Of a stretch of DNA of 30,563 bases, positions 10,520 through 29,148 are shown piece by piece. The position numbers and the translations under genes are program-made. How positions within the stretch are numbered: position 1 is the first letter of the stretch; each line of letters opens with the position of its first letter. The stretch lies in IMG/VR virus record IMGVR_UViG_3300047455_000148, positions 1-30,563 of that record; one strand, given 5' to 3'. The notes beneath the pieces are model-generated. The model saw nothing but the letters and a program-made list of their open reading frames with translations. It was not told the origin of the DNA and ran no database searches. The stretch is from a virus.

Positions 10520-10527
10520 CAAATATA
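10520..10527 (-). promoter_or_regulatory. Bacteroidota-type -7 box before portal, TATATTTG
   Basis: TATATTTG lies on the minus strand between the terminase stop (10545) and the portal start (10495), with a 24-nt gap to the ATG. It is an exact TAnnTTTG match and would give a normal short leader. It suggests the portal and fibre genes can be transcribed separately from the terminase operon. Confidence 0.5.
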
Positions 10528-13942: not shown

Positions 13943-14230
13943 TTAGTTTAGGTAGAAACCCATAAAGCCGTCGTCGTCTTCATCCTCTTCAGCACCTTGA
14001 AACGCTTGAAACTGAAGTGTCATGAACTCCTCGAACTCTCCTGAATCTCTACAGTTGTTTCCGTAAGTTAAGCTCCAACGGTTTTCCTCCTCGCCTTCTT
14101 CTTCAAGAAACCCAAAGGCAGCCGTGTAAACTAAATCCCCGGAGTGATTGTACTTCTTGGTAATCTCCTCTATTGTCTCCATCACACCTGCGATTTCAGA
14201 GAACATTGCTTTCTTTAGAATATCGTCCAT
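13943..14230 (-). CDS. Acidic hypothetical protein, 95 aa
   Basis: I choose the ATG at 14230 (MDDILKKAMFSEI), 4 nt after the stop of the upstream fibre-like gene; earlier in-frame ATGs (14254 and 14293) would run back into that gene. The protein has a front amphipathic helix (AMFSEIAGVMETIEEITKKYN), a short strand region (DLVYTAAFGFLE) and a very acidic tail (FQGAEEDEDDDGFMGFYL). No family is recognised. The acidic tail ending in aromatic residues could be a protein-docking element; function unknown. Confidence 0.6.
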   Translation of the reverse strand: MDDILKKAMFSEIAGVMETIEEITKKYNHSGDLVYTAAFGFLEEEGEEENRWSLTYGNNCRDSGEFEEFMTLQFQAFQGAEEDEDDDGFMGFYLN

Positions 14231-14234
14231 AGTA

Positions 14235-15092
14235 TTAAGTGGTTGAGAAGACATCACAGCTAGTCGCGGCACCAGTTGTTGTGAGGTTAGCATTTACAAG
14301 CCAGAACTCTGTATCAACAGCGATACACTCAATAACATCCCCAGCTTTTCCTCCACTGCTTGCGCTGGTTGCCGCAAGAGTAATTGTGTTGTTTGAGCCA
14401 GACTTGACATTATTTTGAATCGCCCTAGAGCTACCATCGCTTTTGTCAAGAGTGACCTTCCCGAAGAACTTGTCACCACTAGCGGACTTGATTGTCATGG
14501 CGGTAGACTTCTCTGTTGAGACAACGAACTTTAAATTATCACCAGCAGCACTGATTGAAGGCAGGCTAATAGTACCACCGTTAATTGAGTTAACATCCAA
14601 GAGGTAAACCACACTGCCGTCACTGGCCTGAACGCCTGCGGTGGTCGTAAGGGTAGACATGGTGGGAACGGCGGAATCCGCAGCAATGGTAATCGTGTCT
14701 GTTGCTGAATTTCTAGAAAGAGTAATTCCACCTCCTGAATTGAACGTCACAGTCTTGCTTGACCCAGTGGACTGGGCTACAGTAATCTGTGGACTGGCAG
14801 TTCCTGATGTACTAGTCGTTACGGTTGAAGCTGAAGGGAATGCCCTCTTCTTGATAGTACCATCACTAGCAATAATCAAGACATCTGTTTCGGTTCCGGT
14901 AGCTAAGCTAGTTGGCCCACTGCCAATCTTCAGTCCAGCAACTTTTACTTCCGTAGTAGAAAGTGAGAGTGCGGAAGAGTTTCCGCTCCCGTCTTCAATT
15001 ACCTTTAGACTGGATGTAAGGTTCGCGGCATCTGTTGTTTTCAGAAGGCCTTGATACGTTGACTTAATCCTATTTCCACTAAGTGTTCCCAT
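14235..15092 (-). CDS. Fibre-like virion protein, 285 aa
   Basis: A 285-aa Ser/Thr/Gly-rich protein. Its start, MGTLSGNRIKSTYQGLLKTTD, is a form I recall from marine phage structural proteins. The body has alternating strand segments (ALSLSTTEVKVAGLKIGSG, then GGGITLSRNSATDTITIAAD and MKIKSASGD-like strands) and ends with a more hydrophobic stretch, GDVIECIAVDTEFWLVNA, typical of a fibre tip or a domain that ends a trimeric shaft. It heads a minus-strand unit that runs toward the GroES-like and packaging genes, with a TATATTTG box 16 nt before its ATG. The exact virion role is unknown. Confidence 0.75.
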   Translation of the reverse strand: MGTLSGNRIKSTYQGLLKTTDAANLTSSLKVIEDGSGNSSALSLSTTEVKVAGLKIGSGPTSLATGTETDVLIIASDGTIKKRAFPSASTVTTSTSGTASPQITVAQSTGSSKTVTFNSGGGITLSRNSATDTITIAADSAVPTMSTLTTTAGVQASDGSVVYLLDVNSINGGTISLPSISAAGDNLKFVVSTEKSTAMTIKSASGDKFFGKVTLDKSDGSSRAIQNNVKSGSNNTITLAATSASSGGKAGDVIECIAVDTEFWLVNANLTTTGAATSCDVFSTT

Positions 15093-15108: not shown

Positions 15109-15116
15109 CAAATATA
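15109..15116 (-). promoter_or_regulatory. Bacteroidota-type -7 box, TATATTTG
   Basis: An exact TAnnTTTG match on the minus strand, 16 nt before the ATG at 15092. The whole divergent gap is only 30 bp, so the regulator gene on the other strand (start 15123) begins 6 nt away. Binding of that regulator near its own start could block this promoter. Confidence 0.5.
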
Positions 15117-16095: not shown

Positions 16096-16137
16096 CACAA
16101 TATACGGAATCTAATAGCGTTAAGGATGTAGACAAAC
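16096..16137 (+). promoter_or_regulatory. Early-type promoter element before secreted protein
   Basis: CACAATA (16096-16102), 15 nt, CGTT (16118-16121), 5 nt, TGTAG (16127-16131), then ACAAAC. Box order and spacing are those of the plus-strand early elements at 20.7-25.3 kb, with one change in TATAG. It lies 22 nt before the ATG at 16154 and reads against the surrounding virion genes. Confidence 0.6.
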
Positions 16138-16153
16138 CCCCAAACACAATGTC

Positions 16154-16645
16154 ATGAAGAACATCATTTTCATCCTAGCCATCGCATTGGCAACCGTGAG
16201 CAACGCTCAATCCCTTAATAGTATCCTCGACGGTGTGTACGCACCAACAGAGAAGAACGCACTTAGCACACCCCTACTACTAAGTATGAAACCACAGAAC
16301 GGAATACCGCACGAGGTTCTCGTAATCCGGGTCGTGGGCATGAATCCAGACTCAATCTTTGGAGACGTACTAGACCCGAACTTGGGTACCTCGCTGGAAA
16401 CGTACACCGTATTCCACGGAGCAGACGTATTAGCCTTACCTCTTTTTGAGAAAGGTATCTACACCATCCTTTGCTTAGACGAGGATGGAAACAACGTAGG
16501 AGAGGGAGTACATATCGTCGTGAACGAAAACTTCATTCAGGGAGTCATAGATACAGGATACGCAGAAAAAAGAAGCAGCCTAATCGTATCGACTAGACCG
16601 CTTCGTATTGGTCGGGATAGAACCGAGTTCGTTTCCTTCAACTGA
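16154..16645 (+). CDS. Secreted or periplasmic protein of unknown function
   Basis: A 163-aa protein with a clear Sec signal peptide: a basic start (MKN), a hydrophobic core (IIFILAIALATV) and a likely cut after SNA before QSLN. The mature part is strand-rich, with HEVLVIRVVGMNPDSIFGDV (~55-74), YTVFHGADVLALPLFEKGIY and a tail SLIVSTRPLRIGRDRTEFV. No enzyme motif is visible. It is on the plus strand inside the minus-strand virion block, has its own early-type promoter element, and its stop directly abuts the stop of the converging gene. Exported phage proteins expressed early can modify the cell surface or block superinfection; that role is inferred only. Confidence 0.75.
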   Translation: MKNIIFILAIALATVSNAQSLNSILDGVYAPTEKNALSTPLLLSMKPQNGIPHEVLVIRVVGMNPDSIFGDVLDPNLGTSLETYTVFHGADVLALPLFEKGIYTILCLDEDGNNVGEGVHIVVNENFIQGVIDTGYAEKRSSLIVSTRPLRIGRDRTEFVSFN

Positions 16646-17234: not shown

Positions 17235-17242
17235 CAAATATA
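17235..17242 (-). promoter_or_regulatory. Bacteroidota-type -7 box, TATATTTG, 4 nt from ATG
   Basis: TATATTTG-CGAT-ATG on the minus strand. Initiation about 7 nt after the box would fall within the first codons, so the mRNA would be leaderless or translation would start at the second ATG (17224). Confidence 0.55.
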
Positions 17243-18133: not shown

Positions 18134-18400
18134 TCATTTGGTGAGACCCCATTTGTGATTGCTGTATCCAACATGAACCTTGAAGTCAATGGACTTTACG
18201 CTCAGTCTTAAGTTATCTTTCTGCTTCTTAATTCTAGCAGGACTCTTGAACGCGAGCTGTATTAGTCTATCTCGGTGTACGTCACTTCCCCAGATGAGAC
18301 TTTTATCGTTGCCAGAAAGAACCACATCATTTATGCGGTAATCTTTTTTGGTTTTGCCGTCGTGAAGAACAACGTCGCAGAGGTGTATAGGGTCTTTCAT
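18134..18400 (-). CDS. Hypothetical protein, 88 aa
   Basis: An 88-aa protein, strand-rich at the front (IHLCDVVLHDGKTKKDYRIN, then DVVLSGNDKSLIWGSDVH) and basic toward the end (FKSPARIKKQKDNLRLSVKS). No membrane segment, signal peptide or known motif is seen. It follows the coiled-coil membrane protein by 26 nt and ends close to the TATATTTG box of the next gene. An early-type element is recognisable upstream on the same strand (18401-18434). Function unknown. Confidence 0.65.
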   Translation of the reverse strand: MKDPIHLCDVVLHDGKTKKDYRINDVVLSGNDKSLIWGSDVHRDRLIQLAFKSPARIKKQKDNLRLSVKSIDFKVHVGYSNHKWGLTK

Positions 18401-18434
18401 AGACCTATAACGCTATTAGCTGTAGGTTATTGTA
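18401..18434 (-). promoter_or_regulatory. Early-type promoter half-match on the minus strand
   Basis: Reading the minus strand: ACAATA (18433-18428), a 14-nt gap, GCGTT, 5 nt, then TCTATG, whose ATG is the start codon at 18400. ACAATA and GCGTT match the plus-strand early elements at the same spacing, and CTAATAGCGTTA is also found in the element at 16096-16137. The TATAG box is poor, so activity is doubtful. The CAATAA is also the Gln-stop end of the upstream gene. Confidence 0.35.
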
Positions 18435-18637: not shown

Positions 18638-18645
18638 CAAAAGTA
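18638..18645 (-). promoter_or_regulatory. Bacteroidota-type -7 box, TACTTTTG, 4 nt from ATG
   Basis: TACTTTTG-TAGC-ATG on the minus strand. It lies in the 34-nt gap between the protease stop (18668) and the membrane-protein start (18633), so the small-protein block can be transcribed without the protease. Confidence 0.5.
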
Positions 18646-18667: not shown

Positions 18668-19789
18668 TCAAAACCTTCTTTCTGACTTCCTCCTTACTTG
18701 CTCTTCTCTATAGAAGGGGTCGAGCTCCGAACCGAAACAAATCTGCCCCCAGTTAGCTAGTACAATTTGAAGGTCGCTAACTGTAAAGAAGCCATCTCCG
18801 TTTAGGTCTCCCTCAATCCAATTAAAGTCACCCCAATGGCTGAGCATAAGCATTAAGTCGTTAGTACCTACAACTAAATCGCCGCTGATGTCACCTGCGC
18901 AATACGGGTCTCCCGTCGTCATGCCCGGCCTAGTAATCTCAATCATGCTATGCATCCGCTCAATCTGACCTTCAGTAAAGTGTTGCCGGCATGAATCTAC
19001 ATAGTAGTCCATGTGATTGTCCGGTGTGTAGCTGTACAGGGCAGGGGGGCATATTGGGTTCTCGCAACTCCAGTTCAGTTTAGTTGGCGGGGTATCGCAA
19101 ACAAAGTCTCCTGTCTCCTCGCAATCACCGAGGTTTTGTCCGCAGTTGTCTACGTTCCGAAAGACGTGATGCAAACTTAGGAAGTGACCGACCTCATGGA
19201 TAAGTGTTTTGTTCTCATCTCTATTATCCAATAGGTGGTCTCCTAGCCTTCCGAATACACTTGTCTTGACCCACACTCCGTCTAGTGTTGTTTGAGGTGT
19301 GTACGCTGTCCATGCAAAACCTAGTATGCCTTGACAAAGAGCTGGGAATACATGTACGTTCATTACCGTTTCTCTGTCCCATACGATATCCTCTAAGTAG
19401 TCATTCATAGAGTTAAAAGCAAACCCATTGTAAGGAATGCAATTAGTGTTGAGCAACGCATAGGAATCTTCGTACTCATCAAAGTCATGATACTCTATGG
19501 CCAATAAATCAAACTCATACATCGCCTCCTCGAACTCCTCATTCAGATGAGCAGCTGCATCGTTAACGATATAGAGCGGTAGATTGCTGTGAGAGATGCT
19601 GTCAGTGTAGTAAATGTGAACGACGTAGTTGACCGTCTTCCATTCTGGTTCATCTGGGAAGAACCCCATTGTTCTTACAGCTAAATCCTCTGGCTCACCG
19701 AATGTGACACACTGAGAGTTGGCCTTGCTTACAAGCAGGAGGGTTAGCATCCATAGGACAAAGATTGCATGGAACTTATAGCGTGACAT
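18668..19789 (-). CDS. Secreted M43-family metalloprotease with dockerin-like repeats
   Basis: I take the ATG at 19789 (MSRYKFHAIFVLWML), which gives a normal Sec signal peptide with a cut near SKANS-QC; ATG 19813 or GTG 19825 would add a polar tail. The 373-aa protein has the zinc site H178-EVGH-FLSLH-H188, the metzincin HExxHxxxxxH form with Ser in place of the usual Gly, then CDTPP (~211-215) and a Met-turn NHMDYY (M240) followed by DSCRQHFTEGQIERM. These are hallmarks of M43 (cytophagalysin/pappalysin) peptidases. Residues ~278-322 hold two dockerin/EF-hand-like calcium loops (GDISGDLVVGTNDLM and GDLNGDGFFTVSDLQ). It would be exported and calcium-stabilised. It may act on host or biofilm protein, as a virion protein or lysis product. 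Confidence 0.85.
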   Translation of the reverse strand: MSRYKFHAIFVLWMLTLLLVSKANSQCVTFGEPEDLAVRTMGFFPDEPEWKTVNYVVHIYYTDSISHSNLPLYIVNDAAAHLNEEFEEAMYEFDLLAIEYHDFDEYEDSYALLNTNCIPYNGFAFNSMNDYLEDIVWDRETVMNVHVFPALCQGILGFAWTAYTPQTTLDGVWVKTSVFGRLGDHLLDNRDENKTLIHEVGHFLSLHHVFRNVDNCGQNLGDCEETGDFVCDTPPTKLNWSCENPICPPALYSYTPDNHMDYYVDSCRQHFTEGQIERMHSMIEITRPGMTTGDPYCAGDISGDLVVGTNDLMLMLSHWGDFNWIEGDLNGDGFFTVSDLQIVLANWGQICFGSELDPFYREEQVRRKSERRF

Positions 19790-19852
19790 GTGGTTGGATT
19801 TAGGGTAAAGCATTCCCCCGCACACTATTAGTATTCAACAAGAACGATAGCC

Positions 19853-20443: not shown

Positions 20444-20761
20444 ATGAACGAGATAACCAACAAAAACAACGGATTGCAAGCGACTATCGAAATGGTTGAG
20501 ATGCACTTGAAGAGTGCCAGAGTCCTTGCTGAGACTGCATTCGGGATGGCTAAGTTCAGCCTTGAATCCATCGAAAGTGAGTTGCGAACCGCTGAAGCCT
20601 TGTGCTTGTGCGACCAGACTAAGCGCAATATCCAAGAGCGTGAGGCAGTAGCCCTAGACGAGCTAGTAGCCGCAAGGAGCACGATGAACGATATCAGGAG
20701 AACGCACATCAATCTCAAGTCCAGTATCGGCATGGGAGATTTCTCAGCACTTGCACAATAA
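20444..20761 (+). CDS. Helical hypothetical protein, first gene of the early block
   Basis: A 105-aa, almost entirely helical protein (TIEMVEMHLKSARVLAETAF, then SLESIESELRTAEALCLC and NIQEREAVALDELVAARSTM), probably a coiled coil. The leader is AT-rich and has no Shine-Dalgarno. Its last codons, CAA TAA, are at the same time the ACAATA box of the next promoter element, so the coding end and the downstream promoter overlap. No family is recognised. As the first gene after the control region it is a candidate immediate-early host-takeover protein, by position only. Confidence 0.7.
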   Translation: MNEITNKNNGLQATIEMVEMHLKSARVLAETAFGMAKFSLESIESELRTAEALCLCDQTKRNIQEREAVALDELVAARSTMNDIRRTHINLKSSIGMGDFSALAQ

Positions 20762-20794
20762 GCAGAAACCGAGATACGTTAACACTATAGAAAC
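20755..20794 (+). promoter_or_regulatory. Early promoter element A
   Basis: ACAATA (20755-20760), 16 nt, CGTT (20777-20780), AACAC, TATAG (20786-20790), AAAC. Around TATAG it reads GTTAACACTATAGAA, strikingly like the initiation half of the SP6 RNA polymerase promoter. It is 41 nt before the ArdC-like start at 20832. Confidence 0.65.
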
Positions 20795-20795
20795 A

Positions 20796-20817
20796 GGGGA
20801 GGCAATCCAGTCTCCCC
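20796..20817 (+). promoter_or_regulatory. 5'-leader hairpin before the ArdC-like gene
   Basis: GGGGAG (20796-20801) pairs with CTCCCC (20812-20817) around a 10-nt loop, starting 5 nt after the likely transcription start. No other early leader has this hairpin; it might stabilise the mRNA or tune translation. Confidence 0.4.
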
Positions 20818-20831
20818 ACAAATTGAAAGCC

Positions 20832-21758
20832 ATGAGCAAAGCGAAGAAAGACGTCTACCAGCAGGTCACCGACCGCATCATCGAAGGTCTCCAGACCAAG
20901 GGTCTCCAGTGGTTCAAGCCTTGGAACGCAGGTGACGGCATGGGTGCTTTGATGCCCATCAATAACACCACGGGGAAAGCCTATCGTGGTCTCAACCAGC
21001 TGTTCCTCTGCATCGAGCAGACGGCCAATGGCTACGAGCACAACGAATGGTTGACCTACAAGCAGGCGGCTAAGGCTGGCGGCAATGTGGTTAAGGGTTC
21101 TACAGGAACTGAGATTGTGTTCTGGAACATCAGCTACAAGGGTGAGGACGGCAAGTTCTACCGCAAGATTCAGGACATCCCTGTAGGCATGGCGTTCGAC
21201 AAGCTTTTCAGCCCACGCCTCTGGAACGTGTTCAACATCGCCCAGTGCGAAGGCATCGAGCCACGCCGCAAGCCCATGACTCCGGTCGAGCCAGCGGAGC
21301 AGTTCAATCCAATCGGTGAGGCTGAGAAGGTGTACGCAGAGCTGTACCCCACCAAGCACAAGCCCACGTTGGGTCACGGCGGAGCCAGCGCGTTCTACGC
21401 TCCAATGCGCCACCACGTCCAGATGCCCAAGCCTGAGACCTTCGTCACCAACGATGACTACTACAAGACTCTGTTTCATGAGTTGGTGCACAGCACTGGT
21501 CACGAGGATATCTTGAATCGCCTGAACAAGGTGGCTGCCTTCGGGTCTGAGGACTACAGCAAAGAGGAGCTGGTGGCTGAGATTGGTGCGCAGTTCCTCG
21601 TGGGTCTCACAGGCATCAAGCCAAAGGATGACCACGTGAACAGCCAAGCCTACGTCAACAACTGGGTCAAGCAGTTGAAGGACAAGCCGAAGATGGCTCT
21701 GTCTGCCGCGAACAAGGCAATGAAGGCTGTGGACTTCATCATGGGGGGAGAGGCGTGA
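20832..21758 (+). CDS. ArdC-like antirestriction protein (DUF1738 domain and metallopeptidase)
   Basis: A 308-aa protein from the ATG at 20832 (MSKAKKDVYQQVTDRII); the frame opens earlier but that part overlaps the promoter. The N-terminal ArdC domain (DUF1738, ssDNA-binding) shows VYQQVTDRIIEGLQTKGLQW, FKPW, YRGLNQLFL, WLTYKQAAKAGGNVVKG and a KLFSPRLWNVFNIAQCEG strand. The C-terminal half is a zinc metallopeptidase-like domain with YYKTLFHELVHSTGHEDIL (HExxH) and EELVAEIGAQFLVGLTG, as in plasmid ArdC and phage polyvalent proteins. ArdC-type proteins shield incoming DNA from restriction enzymes, which fits an early gene. Its G+C is visibly higher (several stretches at 55-70%) than the rest of the window. 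Confidence 0.85.
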   Translation: MSKAKKDVYQQVTDRIIEGLQTKGLQWFKPWNAGDGMGALMPINNTTGKAYRGLNQLFLCIEQTANGYEHNEWLTYKQAAKAGGNVVKGSTGTEIVFWNISYKGEDGKFYRKIQDIPVGMAFDKLFSPRLWNVFNIAQCEGIEPRRKPMTPVEPAEQFNPIGEAEKVYAELYPTKHKPTLGHGGASAFYAPMRHHVQMPKPETFVTNDDYYKTLFHELVHSTGHEDILNRLNKVAAFGSEDYSKEELVAEIGAQFLVGLTGIKPKDDHVNSQAYVNNWVKQLKDKPKMALSAANKAMKAVDFIMGGEA

Positions 21759-21768
21759 GCCTCCCCTC

Positions 21769-21784
21769 CGCCCTTCGGGGCGTT
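21769..21784 (+). terminator. Terminator hairpin after the ArdC-like gene
   Basis: CGCCC-TTCG-GGGCG (21769-21782), a five-pair GC stem with an extra-stable UUCG loop, then TT. An imperfect GC hairpin (GGGGAGAGGC with GCCTCCCC) lies just before it across the stop codon. The T run is short, so this may be a weak terminator or an mRNA 3'-end stabiliser. Confidence 0.6.
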
Positions 21785-21846
21785 AACATTAATTCACAAG
21801 TAGCGCACAATAAAACGAATACATCCAGCGTTACTACTATAGAAAC
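21782..21846 (+). promoter_or_regulatory. Early promoter element B
   Basis: GTTAACATT (21782-21790), then ACAATA (21807-21812), 16 nt, CGTT (21829-21832), ACTAC, TATAG (21838-21842), AAAC. It starts in the foot of the terminator hairpin and ends 10 nt before the ATG at 21856, the shortest leader of the family. Confidence 0.65.
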
Positions 21847-21855
21847 GAGAGAAAC

Positions 21856-22191
21856 ATGAAAAAATACGACTCAACACCGATTGCCTACGCAAGCTACCCA
21901 GAGACTGGAGTAGTCCGAACCGACCGCAAGTTCCGCGCCACCATCCAGTTCTACACTGGTAGTGCATGGGGGAAGGGCACATGGGCATGCTCCAAGACGT
22001 TCAACAACGAGAGCCACGTGGACAACTTCATTGCATACATGGAGAGGACTAAGGGCTGGAACGTCGATGAGGTTTGGTATGGAAAGAACCTGACTCCGCT
22101 TGAGGACTCTTGGGCGTATCAAGGTGAGGCTGTAAAGACCAAGTTTCACAAGCCTAATGGATGGAAGGCTAGACGCGCCGCCGGACACTAA
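21856..22191 (+). CDS. Hypothetical early protein, 111 aa
   Basis: A 111-aa mixed alpha/beta protein, rich in aromatic residues (KFRATIQFYTGSAWGKGTWA, then CSKTFNNESHVDNFIAYMER and NVDEVWYG). The C-terminus is basic (FHKPNGWKARRAAGH). No known motif, membrane segment or signal peptide is seen. It has its own early promoter element and is followed by the next gene after 12 nt. Function unknown; small early phage proteins of this type often bind and inhibit host enzymes. Confidence 0.7.
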   Translation: MKKYDSTPIAYASYPETGVVRTDRKFRATIQFYTGSAWGKGTWACSKTFNNESHVDNFIAYMERTKGWNVDEVWYGKNLTPLEDSWAYQGEAVKTKFHKPNGWKARRAAGH

Positions 22192-22203
22192 ACAGAAAAT
22201 AGT

Positions 22204-22497
22204 ATGGGACAGAAAATGATTAAGATAGACACCATGACTTGCGGCAAGCACTTCCTTCCTGCAATCTTCAACGGAGACTTCGAGGGTCTCAACGCAAACG
22301 AGGAGTTCCTCCTTGAGCGTGAGGTGGGTTGGTATAACGCGACGGCTGAGGAGGACTACCCAGACTTTGTTAGCATCGAGTTCGAGTGCACGTCAAGTGA
22401 GCGATACATCTGTGGATGTGACCTGACAGGACTATTCGGCGAATGCGTGGAGGTAAAGGTCTTCGTGACCTTAGACGAGAACTACGTGAAGGATTAA
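22204..22497 (+). CDS. Hypothetical early protein, 97 aa
   Basis: A 97-aa acidic protein; the second in-frame ATG at 22219 (MIKIDTMTCGKHFLPA) is an alternative start. The body has LPAIFNGDFEGLNANEEFLL, then SIEFECTSSERYICGCDLTG and a strand end VEVKVFVTLDENYVKD. Four cysteines (TMTCGKH, EFECTSS, YICGCDL) plus one near the end could bind metal, though the spacing fits no known zinc fold. Its TAA stop is part of the TTAAC box of promoter element C. Function unknown. Confidence 0.65.
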   Translation: MGQKMIKIDTMTCGKHFLPAIFNGDFEGLNANEEFLLEREVGWYNATAEEDYPDFVSIEFECTSSERYICGCDLTGLFGECVEVKVFVTLDENYVKD

Positions 22498-22556
22498 CAT
22501 CCGTTAACATACTGCGCACAATAACAGCAAACTTGCCGCGTTATTACTACAGAAGA
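22493..22556 (+). promoter_or_regulatory. Early promoter element C
   Basis: ATTAACATCCGTTAAC (22493-22508), ACAATA (22518-22523), 15 nt, CGTT (22539-22542), ATTAC, TACAG (22548-22552), AAGAC. The paired TTAAC boxes are 10 bp apart, one helical turn. The AAAAACAATTCA leader (22564-22575) follows. Confidence 0.65.
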
Positions 22557-22577
22557 CATCATTAAAAACAATTCAAT

Positions 22578-23783
22578 ATGAGAGTTACCAAGAAAAACGA
22601 CATTGCCTTCACGCCTGATTCCAAGTCAGCCATCATCGCACTTGTAAGACTACGCAAAGATTCGTTTGCAAACATCTACAAGATTGAGCGAGCAATCCGA
22701 GACGAGTACATCAAGCTTACAGCTAACAGCTTCGGCCTCATCCCAGCAGATTACTATCAGCTCCAAAAACCGGAGAACGCCAAGGCTATGGCAAAGGCTA
22801 GGTTGTCTGTAATTAGTGGGGATGATGTGGCTATATGCAAGCGGTTCGTTGAAGTCGTACCAAACAAGTCTGACTACACGATATCGCTATGTGAGGAAGG
22901 TGAGGCTGTATTGGAGGAGGCGAACGGCAATGGGTCAAGCCATTCATCATACAGCAGTCGTGTTAGTGAGTACGACATAAACCGAGTTTTAGAATTTGTC
23001 TTAGGCAAAAAGAGCATTGACAACCAAGAGCTACTAGACCACAACGAAGACGTTAAAAGGTCTATCAAGAGAGGCAAATATCTCAAGGCAGTACGCAAGG
23101 GTAATCCGCTACGCGCTGGACTTGAAGATGGGCGGGTGTGCTACGAGTTCACCGATGCTGTGTTCGATGACCACATTGACATGTTTACTCGTGTACTCTT
23201 CATTGGTCACCAACTACGTGTCGTAAAAGATACTGACTCCCCTGTGTATGTCGTAGAAAAACTGACTACCAATTCAGTCAATCCATGGAGGATAGTGGCG
23301 TTCGAGGACAAGCTGTACGACGTTATCGTGGGGCTGTCTTATAAGCTACACGACCGAGAACTGCGGGCAGTAGAGTCAGCGATTCGACAATGCGAGCGAG
23401 GTATGCCATTGATTCAAGACCTGTTCACACAGGACGAGATTCGACAGCTGGCCGATGCCCAGTGCGTGGAACTGCCAGAGCAGACTACGTTCTCTGTAGT
23501 GAAAGTTGGCTCAGAGTCTTTCGGGTGCGTTGAGTGCTCTAAGGTCAAGCCAGAGGCGAACGTGATTGCATCTGGACTCAAGTATGAGGATGCTGATAAG
23601 TTGCGAGGGCTATCAGACAGAGATGCTACAGCAAAGCGACGAGTGGAGAACAAAGTCAATCGCATCAACAACATGAGAGAACAGCTCGTTCAAGAAAGGG
23701 CTGAGTTGGTTAAGCTGGAGGAGGAGCAAGAGCAGGCTGAAAGCAACTTGACTAATCACCAGAACCAAATACATGCGGCATGA
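22578..23783 (+). CDS. Large early protein of unknown function, 401 aa
   Basis: The longest unknown gene of the early block. Residues ~1-100 are helical and mixed (IIALVRLRKDSFANIYKIER, then LTANSFGLIPADYYQLQKPE). A Ser-rich linker (NGNGSSHSSYSSRVSEYD) stands around 115-132. The middle (~135-300) has VLEFVLGKKSIDNQELLDHN and RVLFIGHQLRVVKDTDSPVY. The last ~55 residues are a charged coiled coil (RRVENKVNRINNMREQLVQE, then LVKLEEEQEQAESN). A CVEC pair lies near residue 315. I recognise no family. It has its own promoter element and standard leader and overlaps the next gene by 4 nt. Confidence 0.75.
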   Translation: MRVTKKNDIAFTPDSKSAIIALVRLRKDSFANIYKIERAIRDEYIKLTANSFGLIPADYYQLQKPENAKAMAKARLSVISGDDVAICKRFVEVVPNKSDYTISLCEEGEAVLEEANGNGSSHSSYSSRVSEYDINRVLEFVLGKKSIDNQELLDHNEDVKRSIKRGKYLKAVRKGNPLRAGLEDGRVCYEFTDAVFDDHIDMFTRVLFIGHQLRVVKDTDSPVYVVEKLTTNSVNPWRIVAFEDKLYDVIVGLSYKLHDRELRAVESAIRQCERGMPLIQDLFTQDEIRQLADAQCVELPEQTTFSVVKVGSESFGCVECSKVKPEANVIASGLKYEDADKLRGLSDRDATAKRRVENKVNRINNMREQLVQERAELVKLEEEQEQAESNLTNHQNQIHAA

Positions 23784-23947
23784 TGTTCGATAACGCACAC
23801 AACCCATTCATCGAGCTTAACCTATCGAAGGAAGAGCTGGTGGAAGCATACAACTTCTTCCAAGGAGTTGACCTAGAATCCCAGATGCTAGTAGCTGATG
23901 CACTTGATGCTAAGTACAGCTTGATGGAGTTAATTAACATCCGTTAA
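23780..23947 (+). CDS. Small early protein, 55 aa
   Basis: A 56-codon frame coupled to the large early gene: ATG 23780 overlaps its TGA (ATGA), and a second ATG at 23783 shares one base. The product (MMFDNAHNPFIELNLSKEEL, then VEAYNFFQGVDLESQMLVAD) is acidic and helical, and the codons look genuinely coding. The final codons (Leu-Ile-Asn-Ile-Arg-stop) are encoded by the TTAAC boxes of promoter element D, so the promoter overlaps the gene end. Function unknown. Confidence 0.6.
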   Translation: MMFDNAHNPFIELNLSKEELVEAYNFFQGVDLESQMLVADALDAKYSLMELINIR

Positions 23948-23996
23948 CAAACGACGGACAATATCTCAGAACAAGGTGCGTTCTAACTATAGAAAC
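23933..23996 (+). promoter_or_regulatory. Early promoter element D
   Basis: ATTAACATCCGTTAAC (23933-23948), ACAATA (23958-23963), 15 nt, CGTT (23979-23982), CTAAC, TATAG (23988-23992), AAAC. AAAAACAATTCA follows at 24002-24013 and the ATG at 24016. Confidence 0.7.
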
Positions 23997-24015
23997 ACCA
24001 CAAAAACAATTCACC

Positions 24016-24267
24016 ATGAGTAAAATCATTAAGACAACAGAAGACGGATGGGACTGCGCTCCCGCCATCATGGAGGTATCCGAGCTACTACCACATGCTC
24101 GTGAGATGCACTACGAGATTCAGTGTTGCACGCGAAGCATGAGCGCAAAGGAAATGCTCAGTGACCTCAAGGATTTTGTCACCGAACTGCATGACAGGAT
24201 AGATGGCGCAATCGAAGAGTACACGGGAGTTGAATTTGAAACCATTGAGGAAGATGATGAAGAGTAA
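24016..24267 (+). CDS. Acidic early protein, 83 aa
   Basis: An 83-aa helical protein with a very acidic tail (EFETIEEDDEE). The centre (AIMEVSELLPHAREMHYEIQ, then MSAKEMLSDLKDFVTELHDR) forms amphipathic helices. It has two adjacent cysteines (IQCCTRS). No family is recognised. Headed by promoter element D and the AAAAACAATTCA leader, it overlaps the next gene by 11-14 nt. The acidic tail could mimic DNA or bind a basic host protein, as in several phage inhibitors; speculative. Confidence 0.7.
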   Translation: MSKIIKTTEDGWDCAPAIMEVSELLPHAREMHYEIQCCTRSMSAKEMLSDLKDFVTELHDRIDGAIEEYTGVEFETIEEDDEE

Positions 24268-24487
24268 AGCCGCAATCCCAGAGAGAGGTCAGTTGACCGA
24301 CATGATTATCAGCTTCGAGGAGCGACAATCTACAGTTGAAGAAGTATTGGAGTTGTTCTCCGTGCTCATCCAAACTGGCATGGCTTGGTCACTTCAAGGT
24401 AGCTATGGTCGTACTGCTCGTCACCTCATCGACCAAGGAAGTTTATCCGAGGATGGCACAATAACTCACGAGTTTCTGCCGTTCTAA
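24254..24487 (+). CDS. Early protein with SYGRTARxLI motif, 77 aa
   Basis: The frame opens earlier, but ATG 24254 (or 24257) at the end of the preceding gene is the sensible start. The 76-77-aa protein reads AIPERGQLTDMIISFEERQS, then VLELFSVLIQTGMAWSLQGS and YGRTARHLIDQGSLSEDG. The helix plus WxLQGxYGRTAxxLIxxGxL pattern is one I recall in many small phage proteins of unknown function. Its last codons overlap promoter element E, whose CTAAC contains the stop. Function unknown. Confidence 0.7.
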   Translation: MMKSKAAIPERGQLTDMIISFEERQSTVEEVLELFSVLIQTGMAWSLQGSYGRTARHLIDQGSLSEDGTITHEFLPF

Positions 24488-24497
24488 CTATAGAAAC
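24458..24497 (+). promoter_or_regulatory. Early promoter element E
   Basis: ACAATA (24458-24463), 16 nt, CGTT (24480-24483), CTAAC, TATAG (24489-24493), AAAC. No TTAAC pair is present upstream; the element lies within the end of the 77-aa gene. AAAAACAATTCA follows at 24500-24511. Confidence 0.65.
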
Positions 24498-24513
24498 CAA
24501 AAAACAATTCAAT

Positions 24514-24747
24514 ATGAGTATGTTCGATAAAACCCCACGTCACTTCAGCGTGACACAAAACAAGGCCACCGAAGCCGGAGTCATGAAGATTCAAATCGGA
24601 AAGCTTGAGCTGTCAATCACAACGCTCAACGGAATCAATGAAGCTGTAGTGTTCTCAGAGAGCGGAGACCAAGTTTCTGAGACCAAGTTCACAGACTTCA
24701 ACGATGTCATATCGTTATTCTGGAAGCTAGAATCACTGGACATTTAA
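24514..24747 (+). CDS. Small early protein, 77 aa
   Basis: A 77-aa protein, strand-rich in the middle (GVMKIQIGKLELSITTLNGI, then AVVFSESGDQVSETKFTDFN) with a terminal helix (VISLFWKLESL). No family or motif is recognised. It has promoter element E and the AAAAACAATTCA leader in front. Directly after its stop stands a GTTAAC box joined to another AAAAACAATTCA leader, so the next gene probably shares its transcript. Function unknown. Confidence 0.7.
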   Translation: MSMFDKTPRHFSVTQNKATEAGVMKIQIGKLELSITTLNGINEAVVFSESGDQVSETKFTDFNDVISLFWKLESLDI

Positions 24748-24772
24748 GTTAACCCCCCAAAAACAATTCACC
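24748..24772 (+). promoter_or_regulatory. Promoter cassette remnant: TTAAC box fused to leader
   Basis: GTTAAC (24748-24753), then CCCCCC and AAAAACAATTCA (24759-24770), directly before the ATG at 24773. The ACAATA, CGTT and TATAG boxes are missing, as if the core had been deleted between the distal box and the leader. Confidence 0.45.
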
Positions 24773-25252
24773 ATGGGATTAGATATGTACCTGACTCGGA
24801 ATCACTATGTGAGGAACTGGAGTCACCGACCAGACAGAGACTACAAGGTCTCTGCTAAGATGAACAACAAGAGCGTACCCTTCCTCGGAAGCGTGGGCGA
24901 AGTGACCAGCATCCGCGAGGAGGTGCTGTGCTGGAGAAAGGCCAACGCCATCCATAAGTGGTTCGTTGATAACGTACAGGACGGAGATGATGACTGCGGG
25001 AAGTACTACGTAGGTATCGAGCAACTACAAGAGTTGCGACACGCATGCCTTGCCGTCATCGCATCGCCAGAGCGAGCCGAGGAACTACTTCCCACACAAG
25101 GTGGGATGTTCTACGGGAGCACAGAGTTTGATGAGTACTACTTAGAAGACTTGCGCATGACCGCAAAGGTTATAGAGAAGCTTGTGCAACAGCAAATCCA
25201 AGCCAAGGATATGAAGCACTCGATGGACTTCGAGTACAGCTCATCTTGGTAA
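24773..25252 (+). CDS. Conserved phage protein with MGLDMYL start, 159 aa
   Basis: A 159-aa protein of a type I recall as widespread in phages without known function. Its marks are the start MGLDMYLTRNHYVRNW, WRKANAIHKWFVDNVQDG (~54-71), DDCGKYYVGIEQLQELRHAC and LLPTQGGMFYGSTEFDEYYL, then a long terminal helix (LRMTAKVIEKLVQQQI). Charged and aromatic residues are clustered in a way that suggests a binding pocket, but no catalytic motif is established. Some annotations of such proteins name a kinase; the sequence gives no support for it. It shares the previous gene's transcript. Confidence 0.75.
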   Translation: MGLDMYLTRNHYVRNWSHRPDRDYKVSAKMNNKSVPFLGSVGEVTSIREEVLCWRKANAIHKWFVDNVQDGDDDCGKYYVGIEQLQELRHACLAVIASPERAEELLPTQGGMFYGSTEFDEYYLEDLRMTAKVIEKLVQQQIQAKDMKHSMDFEYSSSW

Positions 25253-25315
25253 TTAACATCCGTTAACAAACGGAGTGCAATAACCCAGATACTCTGGCGT
25301 TATAGATATAGAAAC
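25252..25315 (+). promoter_or_regulatory. Early promoter element F
   Basis: ATTAACATCCGTTAAC (25252-25267), then GCAATA in place of ACAATA (ending at 25282), 15 nt, CGTT (25298-25301), ATAGA, TATAG (25307-25311), AAAC. The leader AAAAACATTTCA (25318-25329) follows. This is the last copy I find in the early block. Confidence 0.7.
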
Positions 25316-25331
25316 CTAAAAACATTTCATC

Positions 25332-25736
25332 ATGAGTAAAGTAAATAGTAATATCGAGTGGACAGACGAGGCAATGATGGCCTTCTGTCAAGTGTACGCA
25401 GGCAACACCAACTCATCGAGAGTGCCAATGCAAGTCAGCTACAAGAAGTATCACAAGCTGAAGATTAATGAGAAGCTGGAGGCATTCAAGCAAGACTGGT
25501 CAGAGTACCAGCGTAGGCTCAAGTTTCCCTTCAGCGAGGGAGATGAGTACTGGGTTTATGGTGATGATGGAGTTCTGCGCTACAGCGTATGGGACGATGT
25601 GTCCGAGGAAGACCACATGGAAGAACCCGACCGCAAGTACTTCACCTACGAGCAAGGCATGGATATGGCTCGTCGCAACGGAATCCTGAGCGACTATCAC
25701 CGGTTGACTGGTATTCTTAAAGCACCAACACCATGA
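25332..25736 (+). CDS. Hypothetical early protein, 134 aa
   Basis: A 134-aa protein with many aromatic and acidic residues. Segments include EWTDEAMMAFCQVYAGNTNS, then KLEAFKQDWSEYQRRLKFPF, GDEYWVYGDDGVLRYSVWDD and a terminal helix region (YFTYEQGMDMARRNGILSDY). The central EGDEYWVYGDDGxxRxSVWD strand pair looks like a small beta-hairpin domain. No family is named. It is headed by promoter element F and overlaps the next gene by ATGA. Function unknown. Confidence 0.7.
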   Translation: MSKVNSNIEWTDEAMMAFCQVYAGNTNSSRVPMQVSYKKYHKLKINEKLEAFKQDWSEYQRRLKFPFSEGDEYWVYGDDGVLRYSVWDDVSEEDHMEEPDRKYFTYEQGMDMARRNGILSDYHRLTGILKAPTP

Positions 25737-26020
25737 GTTACGAATCATTCCGCAACAGAGAGACGTGGTTGGTCAACGTCTGGGGTTTTGTTGATGGTCT
25801 AGCAGAGACCTACATCGACACCGAGAATCCGAAAGACCTAACGGGAGCAAGTCCCCAGTGGTGTAGAGATTGCTTCGATATGATGGTCGAGGATACCTAC
25901 AGCAAACTACCTAACGGAATCCTCAAGGACTTCGTTGATGGATGCCTTCAGACAATAGATTGGCACGAGCTGTCAATTACGGTGAAGGACACAATAAAAG
26001 AGCAACGCGAAACGTTGTAG
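25733..26020 (+). CDS. Small protein with NRETWLVNVW motif, 95 aa
   Basis: A 95-aa protein starting MSYESFRNRETWLVNVWGFV. The pattern Asn-x-Glu-Thr-Trp-x-Val-Asn near the N-terminus recurs in small proteins of many phages and mobile elements (NYxTW-type), of unknown function. The rest is helical (ASPQWCRDCFDMMVEDTYSK, then FVDGCLQTIDWHELSITVKD) with three cysteines. The start overlaps the upstream stop (ATGA), so translation is coupled. It is likely part of the same transcript that runs on to the recombination genes. Confidence 0.7.
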   Translation: MSYESFRNRETWLVNVWGFVDGLAETYIDTENPKDLTGASPQWCRDCFDMMVEDTYSKLPNGILKDFVDGCLQTIDWHELSITVKDTIKEQRETL

Positions 26021-26046
26021 ATGTATAAACCATAACCCCTTTTACA

Positions 26047-26265
26047 ATGAGTAAGACAACAGAAGATATGAGCCGTGTGGAGATGTTGACAATGCACTTC
26101 GACCTTCACGATAGTAAGACAGTGTGCCGGATGTTCCTTGATGCTTGCCGCAGGTACGACCAAGGCAGGATAGACCAGAGTCAGATGGTGCAGGCATGCA
26201 TGCTGGCCGCAGACGAAGCAGAAAACCTTGGGTTGCGAGACCCTTTAAAAGAATGGGACTCATGA
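26047..26265 (+). CDS. Small helical protein, 72 aa
   Basis: A 72-aa helical protein (MSRVEMLTMHFDLHDSKTVC, then RMFLDACRRYDQGRIDQSQM and ACMLAADEAENLGL). No known motif. It follows the previous gene by 26 nt with an AT-rich leader lacking Shine-Dalgarno, and its stop overlaps the next start (ATGA). Unknown function; helical proteins of this size between early genes and recombination genes are often regulatory. Confidence 0.65.
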   Translation: MSKTTEDMSRVEMLTMHFDLHDSKTVCRMFLDACRRYDQGRIDQSQMVQACMLAADEAENLGLRDPLKEWDS

Positions 26266-28447: not shown

Positions 28448-28521
28448 GCTCTCGTAGCTCAACTGGATAGAGCATCACCCTTCTAAGGTGAATGTTGCAG
28501 GTTCGAGTCCTGCCGGGAGTA
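28448..28521 (+). tRNA. tRNA-Arg (anticodon UCU)
   Basis: A full cloverleaf. The acceptor stem GCTCTCG (28448-28454) pairs with CGGGAGT (28514-28520) including two G-U pairs; the discriminator is A28521. The D arm is GCTC-AACTGGATA-GAGC. The anticodon stem is TCACC/GGTGA with loop CTTCTAA, so the anticodon is TCT at 28482-28484. The T arm is GCAGG-TTCGAGT-CCTGC (28497-28513). The 3' CCA is not encoded, so it must be added by the host enzyme. It reads AGA (and AGG) arginine codons and probably matches phage codon use. It lies inside the early operon, between the SSB-tail gene and the next ORF. Confidence 0.9.
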
Positions 28522-28536
28522 CAAAATTTTATTTCA

Positions 28537-29148
28537 ATGGACATCTTCAGACAAACATACCAAGCCTACATCGAGGCTATCGGTGCAGAACCAAACAACT
28601 CAAGAACACGACAGCAGGTAGAGATAAGGGCAGCTTTTGCCAATGCTACATCAGCCTTCTTTCACCACAGCGTGTGTTCAAACCTGTTCAATAAAGACAG
28701 GACAACTATCTATCATTACAAGCAGAGTCATGAGATGTATTTTGTCTCAAGCCCTGAATACAGAACGTACTTCGAAACAGCCTCTCGAATCGTGCTGGAA
28801 AAGCTAGACTCCTTTAAGAAGGAGGACTTAAATTTAGAGGCTCAAAACTTTCTTTCTCCTCATGAGCAAATTGATACAATCAAAGGCATCATCGAAACTC
28901 TCGAAGCCTTCAAAGACCGAATCCAAATCAGACTTAGACGCTATAAACCCAGAACACTACAAGAAGGGGGGCAAGCAAGTGTGGCAGATGATGATAGATA
29001 TCTGGGGCAAAGACTCATACATCGCGTTCTGCGAGATGAACGCCTTCAAGTACCGCATGCGGGCAGGGAACAAGCCGGGGAACAGCACGGAACAGGACAT
29101 GGAGAAAGCGAAGTGGTACGAGAACCAGATACAACAGCTGCGCGATGA
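28537..29148 (+). CDS. ORF with coding first half, overlapping DUF3310 gene
   Basis: The frame opens earlier within the tRNA, but the first sensible start is ATG 28537 (MDIFRQTYQAYIEAIGAEPN). Residues ~1-140 look genuine: TRQQVEIRAAFANATSAFFH, then SNLFNKDRTTIYHYKQSHEM and a helix EQIDTIKGIIETLEAFKDRI. DRTTIYHYKxxHExxxxSxxYRxxF recalls the DnaA-like DNA-binding signature (RDHSTVxHAxK). From ~142 the composition turns to Arg/Gly/Glu/His, typical of a shadow reading of the DUF3310 gene, which lies in the +1 frame. The stop at 29146-29148 overlaps the primase-helicase ATG at 29145. The gene either lost its stop, or uses the overlap for coupling. Confidence 0.6.
   Translation: MDIFRQTYQAYIEAIGAEPNNSRTRQQVEIRAAFANATSAFFHHSVCSNLFNKDRTTIYHYKQSHEMYFVSSPEYRTYFETASRIVLEKLDSFKKEDLNLEAQNFLSPHEQIDTIKGIIETLEAFKDRIQIRLRRYKPRTLQEGGQASVADDDRYLGQRLIHRVLRDERLQVPHAGREQAGEQHGTGHGESEVVREPDTTAAR

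Follow-up and report, generated by a model that had tools for sequence, protein, structure and literature searches.

A putative phage-specific early promoter class alongside host-type late promoters in an uncultured phage group

Which polymerase transcribes the early genes of a phage when the sequences ahead of these genes do not resemble the promoters of its presumed host? The question is raised by a viral DNA of 30,563 bases, the complete IMG/VR record IMGVR_UViG_3300047455_000148 (hereafter the window), in which an element composed of CAATA, a spacer of 15 or 16 nt, CGTT, a further 5 nt and TATAG is repeated ahead of a series of rightward open reading frames (ORFs). A sequence-only reading of the window had proposed that a family of promoter-like elements, unlike the host consensus, precedes the early gene block, and this proposal is supported, the family being kept across relatives. 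The elements most likely represent a real, conserved and phage-specific class of early promoters that is used beside host-type late promoters, with a redirected host polymerase as the most likely reader.

All six copies that had been claimed are present on the forward strand. Copies A (20755–20790, CAATA from 20756) and B (21807–21842, CAATA from 21808) both read ACAATA-N16-CGTT-N5-TATAG; the former stands before an ArdC anti-restriction gene (ATG at 20832, putative start of transcription at A 20789) and the latter before the ORF at 21856 (putative start at 21841). Copy C (22518–22552, CAATA from 22519) is ACAATA-N15-CGTT-N5-TACAG, with a putative start at 22551 and the ORF at 22578, and copy D (23958–23992, CAATA from 23959) is ACAATA-N15-CGTT-N5-TATAG, with a putative start at 23991 and the ORF at 24016. 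Copy E (24458–24493, CAATA from 24459; ACAATA-N16-CGTT-N5-TATAG) lies within the 3' end of the ORF at 24203–24487 and precedes the ORF at 24514 (putative start at 24492), and copy F (25277–25311, CAATA from 25278) reads GCAATA-N15-CGTT-N5-TATAG ahead of the ORF at 25332 (putative start at 25310). The claimed spacings are exact, with 15 or 16 nt ahead of CGTT and 5 nt between it and TATAG, and the same distance of 13–41 nt from element to start codon was measured. The first box is ACAATA, as described, in copies A to E but not in F, and copy C does contain the reported TACAG, followed by AAGAC rather than AAAC. The positions originally given for A and E hold. Those of B, C, D and F coincide instead with the beginning of a TTAACA repeat located 25 nt upstream of CAATA, a feature that had not been named.

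Two weaker copies are found on the same strand. One of them (16098–16131, CAATA-N15-CGTT-N5-TGTAG) stands before an isolated rightward ORF at 16154 and has equivalents in both clades of relatives described below; the other (25992–26026, CAATA-N16-CGTT-N5-TGTAT) precedes the ORF at 26047 and is the last copy ahead of the long run of replication genes. A further copy points leftward (18400–18432, minus strand, CAATA-N15-CGTT-N8-ATG), and the A of the start codon of its ORF (18134–18400) coincides with the putative start site. The strict form of the element, CAATA-N15/16-CGTT-N5-TAYAG, has 6 matches in the window, whereas 1000 dinucleotide shuffles yield none. The CAATA-N15/16-CGTT dyad occurs 8 + 1 times against 0.39 expected for both strands together.

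A near-identical record of 56,985 bases (G003), in which coordinates equal the window position plus 12,329, is suggested by the gene order at both of its ends to be a circularly permuted, near-complete genome. The terminase has kin in Flavobacterium elemo phages, Cellulophaga phages and crAss-like Bacteroides phages, and the phage encodes a muzzle-type protein that carries the Pfam domain crAss_MUZ_C. The phages appear to form a marine, so far uncultured group related to crAss-like phages, with a host presumably of the Bacteroidota type. The rightward block contains the genes of ArdC, an exonuclease and a primase-helicase, and the leftward block those of terminase, portal, tail and a giant ejection-type protein; from this gene content we infer that the former is the early and replication block and the latter the late one. 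Six relatives fetched whole (clade 1) and the genomes G024, G025, G026 and G040 (clade 2, terminase identity about 78–79%) together make up 10 motif-bearing genomes.

A search of the genome and its relatives for the motif, as had been recommended, revealed that the element is conserved. In all 10 genomes (6 of clade 1 and 4 of clade 2), the CAATA/CGTT dyad is enriched on the rightward strand at gaps of 15 and 16 nt only, typically with 3–9 copies per gap against about 0.2 expected. An unbiased count of all 5-mer/4-mer dyads upstream of ORFs brings CAATA-N15-CGTT to the surface in G003, and a CAATA-anchored dyad in G024 of clade 2. In clade 2, CAATA-N15/16-CGTT is followed mostly by ACTAG at the place where clade 1 has TATAG. 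Scanning IMG/VR for CAATA-N15-18-CGTT-N5-TATAGAAAC returned 38 stretches, several of which lie on contigs with 3–8 copies of a looser pattern, and a scan for the ACTAG variant returned 8 stretches on 6 contigs; single-copy matches in unrelated contigs are probably due to chance. No description of this element turned up in the collection of papers searched.

Three features are common to both clades: the CAATA box, the CGTT box and, nine bases after the latter, an A. Counted without selecting for A, this base is an A at 57 of 67 sites, and it is likely the transcription start site. With this A as +1, CGTT occupies −12 to −9 and CAATA lies near −32, which corresponds to a normal −35/−10 layout, and leader lengths cluster around 22–26 nt. 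The best internal evidence is provided by the leftward copy, which is kept in 10/10 motif-bearing genomes: its spacer varies among the genomes, and in each of them the next gene begins with an ATG whose A falls exactly on the predicted +1, which argues for this start site and for a message without a leader. The repeats as such are real, and very probably they represent a promoter class.

The region upstream of the elements displays a second feature, a TTAACA-N4-TTAACA direct repeat with a 10-bp period, which in G003 is almost exclusive to this region and starts 25 nt before CAATA. On the plus strand of the window, a tandem repeat of the TTAACA type with this period is located 25 nt upstream of CAATA in copy B (21783–21798), and the repeat TTAACATCCGTTAACA occupies the same place in copies C (22494–22509), D (23934–23949) and F (25253–25268). 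In clade 2, the distance from the start of the repeats to CAATA is 24–26 or 16 nt, and most of them are spaced by one helical turn. The repeats and the variable spacing of 15 or 16 nt suggest that a multi-subunit polymerase with an upstream contact or an activator fits better than a single-subunit enzyme.

Several of the spacers between the −35 and −10 boxes hold an inverted repeat of 4–5 bp, the arms of which covary between homologous sites (GCAA/TTGC versus GACA/TGTC); examples are copies C and F of the window and the sites at G001 19547 and G002 8254. Stem-bearing spacers amount to 4.1 of 26 site clusters against 1.1 in shuffles, and the same window placed upstream gives 2.7 against 1.6. 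Copies A, B and D have no inverted repeat or hairpin in the spacer, and a stem is therefore not a general requirement. Separately, clade 2 presents an inverted repeat of the GGGGAGG...CTCCCC type across the CAATA box itself (G024 16620, G025 800, G026 59138 and G040 21276, in oriented coordinates). In the window, a GC-rich stem-loop (GGGGAGGC...GTCTCCCC, 20796–20817, plus strand) lies directly past the putative start of the ArdC message; the folding energy of this leader is −16 kcal/mol (z-score −3.1), and a similar sequence is present in relatives.

The late genes are preceded by a different box. The housekeeping promoter of Bacteroidota consists of TTTG at −33 and TAnnTTTG at −7 (PMC2483708), and in the window TAnnTTTG is found upstream of 7/30 leftward ORFs, against 1.3 expected, and of 0/21 rightward ORFs, which agrees with the earlier statement that the host box is missing. 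On the minus strand, it is located at 18638–18645 (TACTTTTG, 12 nt before the ATG of a late ORF), at 17235–17242 and 15109–15116 (TATATTTG, 12 and 24 nt before ATG, respectively), at 10520–10527 (TATATTTG, upstream of the portal gene) and at 1220–1227 (TATCTTTG, 12 nt before ATG). Most late boxes are without a TTG at −33. The five boxes listed have equivalents in all relatives; the start of a late box often lies 12 nt before the ATG, an arrangement that would give leaderless late messages.

Across eight motif-bearing genomes, TAnnTTTG precedes 84 of the 310 leftward ORFs (11.4 expected) and 6 of the 233 rightward ORFs (5.6 expected), the latter being the chance level. By contrast, the CAATA/CGTT element precedes 49/233 rightward and 0/310 leftward ORFs in a scan that demands the +1 base upstream of the ATG and, consequently, leaves out the leaderless leftward copy. 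The Fisher p values of this strand split (4e-20 and 2e-16 for the two classes) overstate independence, since the genomes are related and their sites are not independent. The split implies that early and late genes use different promoter classes, and the late genes, which carry the Bacteroidota −7 box, are presumably read by the host polymerase with its housekeeping sigma factor. It is highly improbable that the early element is not a promoter and acts instead at the RNA level, as a processing site or leader, or as a binding site of a replication protein. Inverted repeats with compensating changes in some spacers would suit such a role, whereas the −35/−10 geometry, the position of conserved sites ahead of genes, nearly all of them on the early strand, and the leftward copy that ends exactly at the start codon in 10/10 genomes all speak for a promoter.

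The same box bears on the possibility that the host polymerase and its housekeeping sigma serve the early genes too, aided by an activator on CAATA and TTAACA in the manner of T4 MotA, with CGTT...TATAG as a poor core. The TTAACA repeats are phased upstream on one face of the helix, and the late genes point to a host sigma that recognizes TAnnTTTG. This box, however, serves the late genes of the same phages and is missing from the early elements at the expected place, the strictly spaced box is CGTT, and no −10-like variant of TAnnTTTG is kept across clades, which leaves such an arrangement improbable.

The sequence-only reading had likened the downstream part of the element to the promoters of the SP6/T7 polymerases, and copy A does carry CACTATAG(A) around the start. 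The comparison fails in other respects. SP6/T7 promoters are contiguous sequences of about 20 bp that end at +1 with fixed spacing, whereas the CAATA box stands 15/16 nt away, the distance between the boxes can differ by one base, a feature of sigma-type promoters, and TATAG is exchanged for ACTAG in the sister clade while CAATA and CGTT stay. A search of nine relatives found no single-subunit polymerase gene, the T7-type polymerase domain (PF00940) being absent from them and detected in the N4 positive control.

A polymerase encoded by the phage and packaged in the virion, as in N4 or crAss-like phages, had also been considered. The giant virion-type protein of these phages (3244–3880 amino acids) sits where the virion RNA polymerases (vRNAPs) of N4 and phi14:2 sit, its six-sequence profile gave a weak match to the N-terminal part of N4 vRNAP (E 6e-5), and the inverted repeats of 4–5 bp in some spacers are reminiscent of N4 promoters. 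The match weakened to E 0.0035 once clade 2 sequences were added, and the profile matches neither the N4 polymerase core, nor phi14:2 gp66 or any PDB profile. PF00940 gave no match either, whereas it detects N4. The conserved DxDxD of the double-barrel core of crAss-like vRNAP was not found in this protein, of which one stretch was modelled poorly. Residues 1875–2965 were modelled as almost all helix (mean predicted local distance difference test score, pLDDT, 68) and match no PDB fold; residues 965–1880 gave a poor model (mean pLDDT 46) and residues 1–965 were covered by sequence comparison, so that a hidden polymerase is unlikely rather than impossible. N4 promoters, moreover, need a hairpin at a fixed place in each, whereas stems are found here at only some sites and at none of copies A, B and D. 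With no polymerase signature by profile or fold in the only giant virion-type protein, this explanation is unlikely. The 3244-residue protein (L131:65–9799, plus strand) contains a HEAFH metallopeptidase-like motif and, by eye, polyvalent-protein-like regions; the homologue in G033, a relative without the motif, lacks residues ~985–1884 of the family profile.

The suggestion of a phage sigma factor or activator may still apply: the promoter geometry fits, but the searches revealed no sigma-like protein. A comparable case is the sigma factor SaPh711_gp47 of the phiEco32-like Salmonella phage 7-11, which recognizes GTAAtg-16-aCTA. Like the element, its promoters are bipartite and phage-specific, with a spacer of 16 and a start a few bases past the downstream box (PMC8948821), and in both cases the phage-specific element lies ahead of a coherent gene set. 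The boxes are different, the phage 7-11 promoters serve late genes rather than an early block, and phage 7-11 encodes a recognisable sigma factor, whereas none was found here.

Promoters of extracytoplasmic function (ECF) sigma factors have a spacer of about 16 nt. Those of the ECF (group IV)/EcfG type share with the element a CGTT −10 box and a start downstream of it, and the spacing of the element is 15–16 nt at all sites. ECF promoters carry AAC at −35 and CGT at −10, and those of EcfG have CGTT (PMC8103513). The element differs in the extra conserved TATAG/ACTAG at the start and in the upstream TTAACA repeats. As its −35 box does not contain the AAC core and no cognate ECF sigma was found in the phages, the element, though probably similar in its mode of action, is not assigned to this class.

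With moderate confidence, we favor a host core polymerase redirected by a probably phage-supplied, ECF-like factor as the reader of the early promoters. The elements would constitute one promoter class, with (A)CAATA at −35, a spacer of 15–16 nt, CGTT at −10 and a start at the A nine bases past CGTT, often with the help of TTAACA repeats at about −57 and −47, a helical turn from each other. Under the control of this class would be the early and replication genes of the rightward block as well as two single genes, an isolated rightward one and a leftward one, while TAnnTTTG would direct the host polymerase with its housekeeping sigma to the late genes. On the early elements, the host core enzyme would carry a different, ECF-sigma-like and non-housekeeping specificity factor. 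The phage would probably supply this factor, possibly as part of the virion, and the factor would be too diverged to be recognised. Several observations weigh against this proposal. The −35 box CAATA is without the AAC core, and the presence of the factor at the onset of infection is unaccounted for. The recommended search for polymerase and sigma genes, made in near-complete relatives, recognised no phage gene able to read the early promoter, neither an RNA polymerase of a known type nor a sigma factor: sigma70 region 2 (Pfam PF04542) has no match in nine phage records, and in profile comparisons no G003 protein family below 1000 amino acids resembles the ECF sigmas of Flavobacterium (the highest probability is 4.7, compared with 99.9 for the positive control), nor does the giant protein.

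Two alternatives address these points differently. Tentatively, a new specificity factor, or a new polymerase, that shares no sequence relationship with known sigmas and phage RNA polymerases may be delivered with the virion; delivery is suggested because no housekeeping-type box occurs above chance before the early genes, and the whole early programme would thus depend on the factor from the first minute. It is rather doubtful that a host ECF sigma, instead of a phage factor, reads the early promoters by way of an existing host regulon. The −10 box CGTT and the spacing resemble those of ECF promoters (PMC8103513), two Flavobacterium genomes contain 24 and 29 sigma70 region-2 matches, most of ECF size, the phages have no recognisable sigma, and a host factor would explain the availability at time zero. 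Against it stand the −35 box, which is not AAC, and the seven element-lacking relatives, in which TAnnTTTG is modestly above chance before rightward genes too (16 versus 6 expected). Furthermore, a scan of 84,980 bacterial and archaeal genomes (257 Gb) for the strict element, in its long form with ACTATAGAAAC, gave no plausible match. The two matches obtained fall within the same coding gene of two Flavobacterium strains and were discarded as chance. As the scan covered the long form rather than the short dyad, a host ECF regulon with looser promoters may exist.

Other features of these genomes were observed along the way. An 88-residue protein (18134–18400, minus strand), the gene of which has its own copy of the early element in front, and a 116-residue protein (13943–14293, minus strand) are found in every motif-bearing genome and are absent from motif-lacking relatives; they would be the first candidates for the specificity factor. 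Two proteins (L131:11905–12441, minus strand, and window 28492–29148, plus strand) display, by eye, a helix-turn-helix like that of DnaA domain IV and are possibly replication initiators; the first of them has a weak Pfam match. A 178-residue helix-turn-helix protein was dropped as a sigma candidate, as it resembles DnaA domain IV by eye. The rightward gene run includes a tRNA-Arg gene (anticodon TCT, 28448–28522, plus strand) that is overlapped by predicted ORF starts. The minus-strand gene at 18668–19825 encodes a secreted-looking protein with a HEVGH zinc motif, and its counterpart in the relative G005 (L135:15447–16631) matches the Pfam M43 metallopeptidase family and, weakly, dockerin.

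The elements provide a defined, testable promoter set for an uncultured phage group that appears to be marine and to infect Bacteroidota-type hosts. Non-host early and host-type late promoters are cleanly split in these genomes; host promoters are usually the first to be used, and the present arrangement would reverse that order. If this holds true, the reader would turn out to be a phage sigma or activator that has diverged, an ECF sigma hijacked from the host, or a new type of RNA polymerase, and the elements could serve as orthogonal promoters for Bacteroidota genetics.

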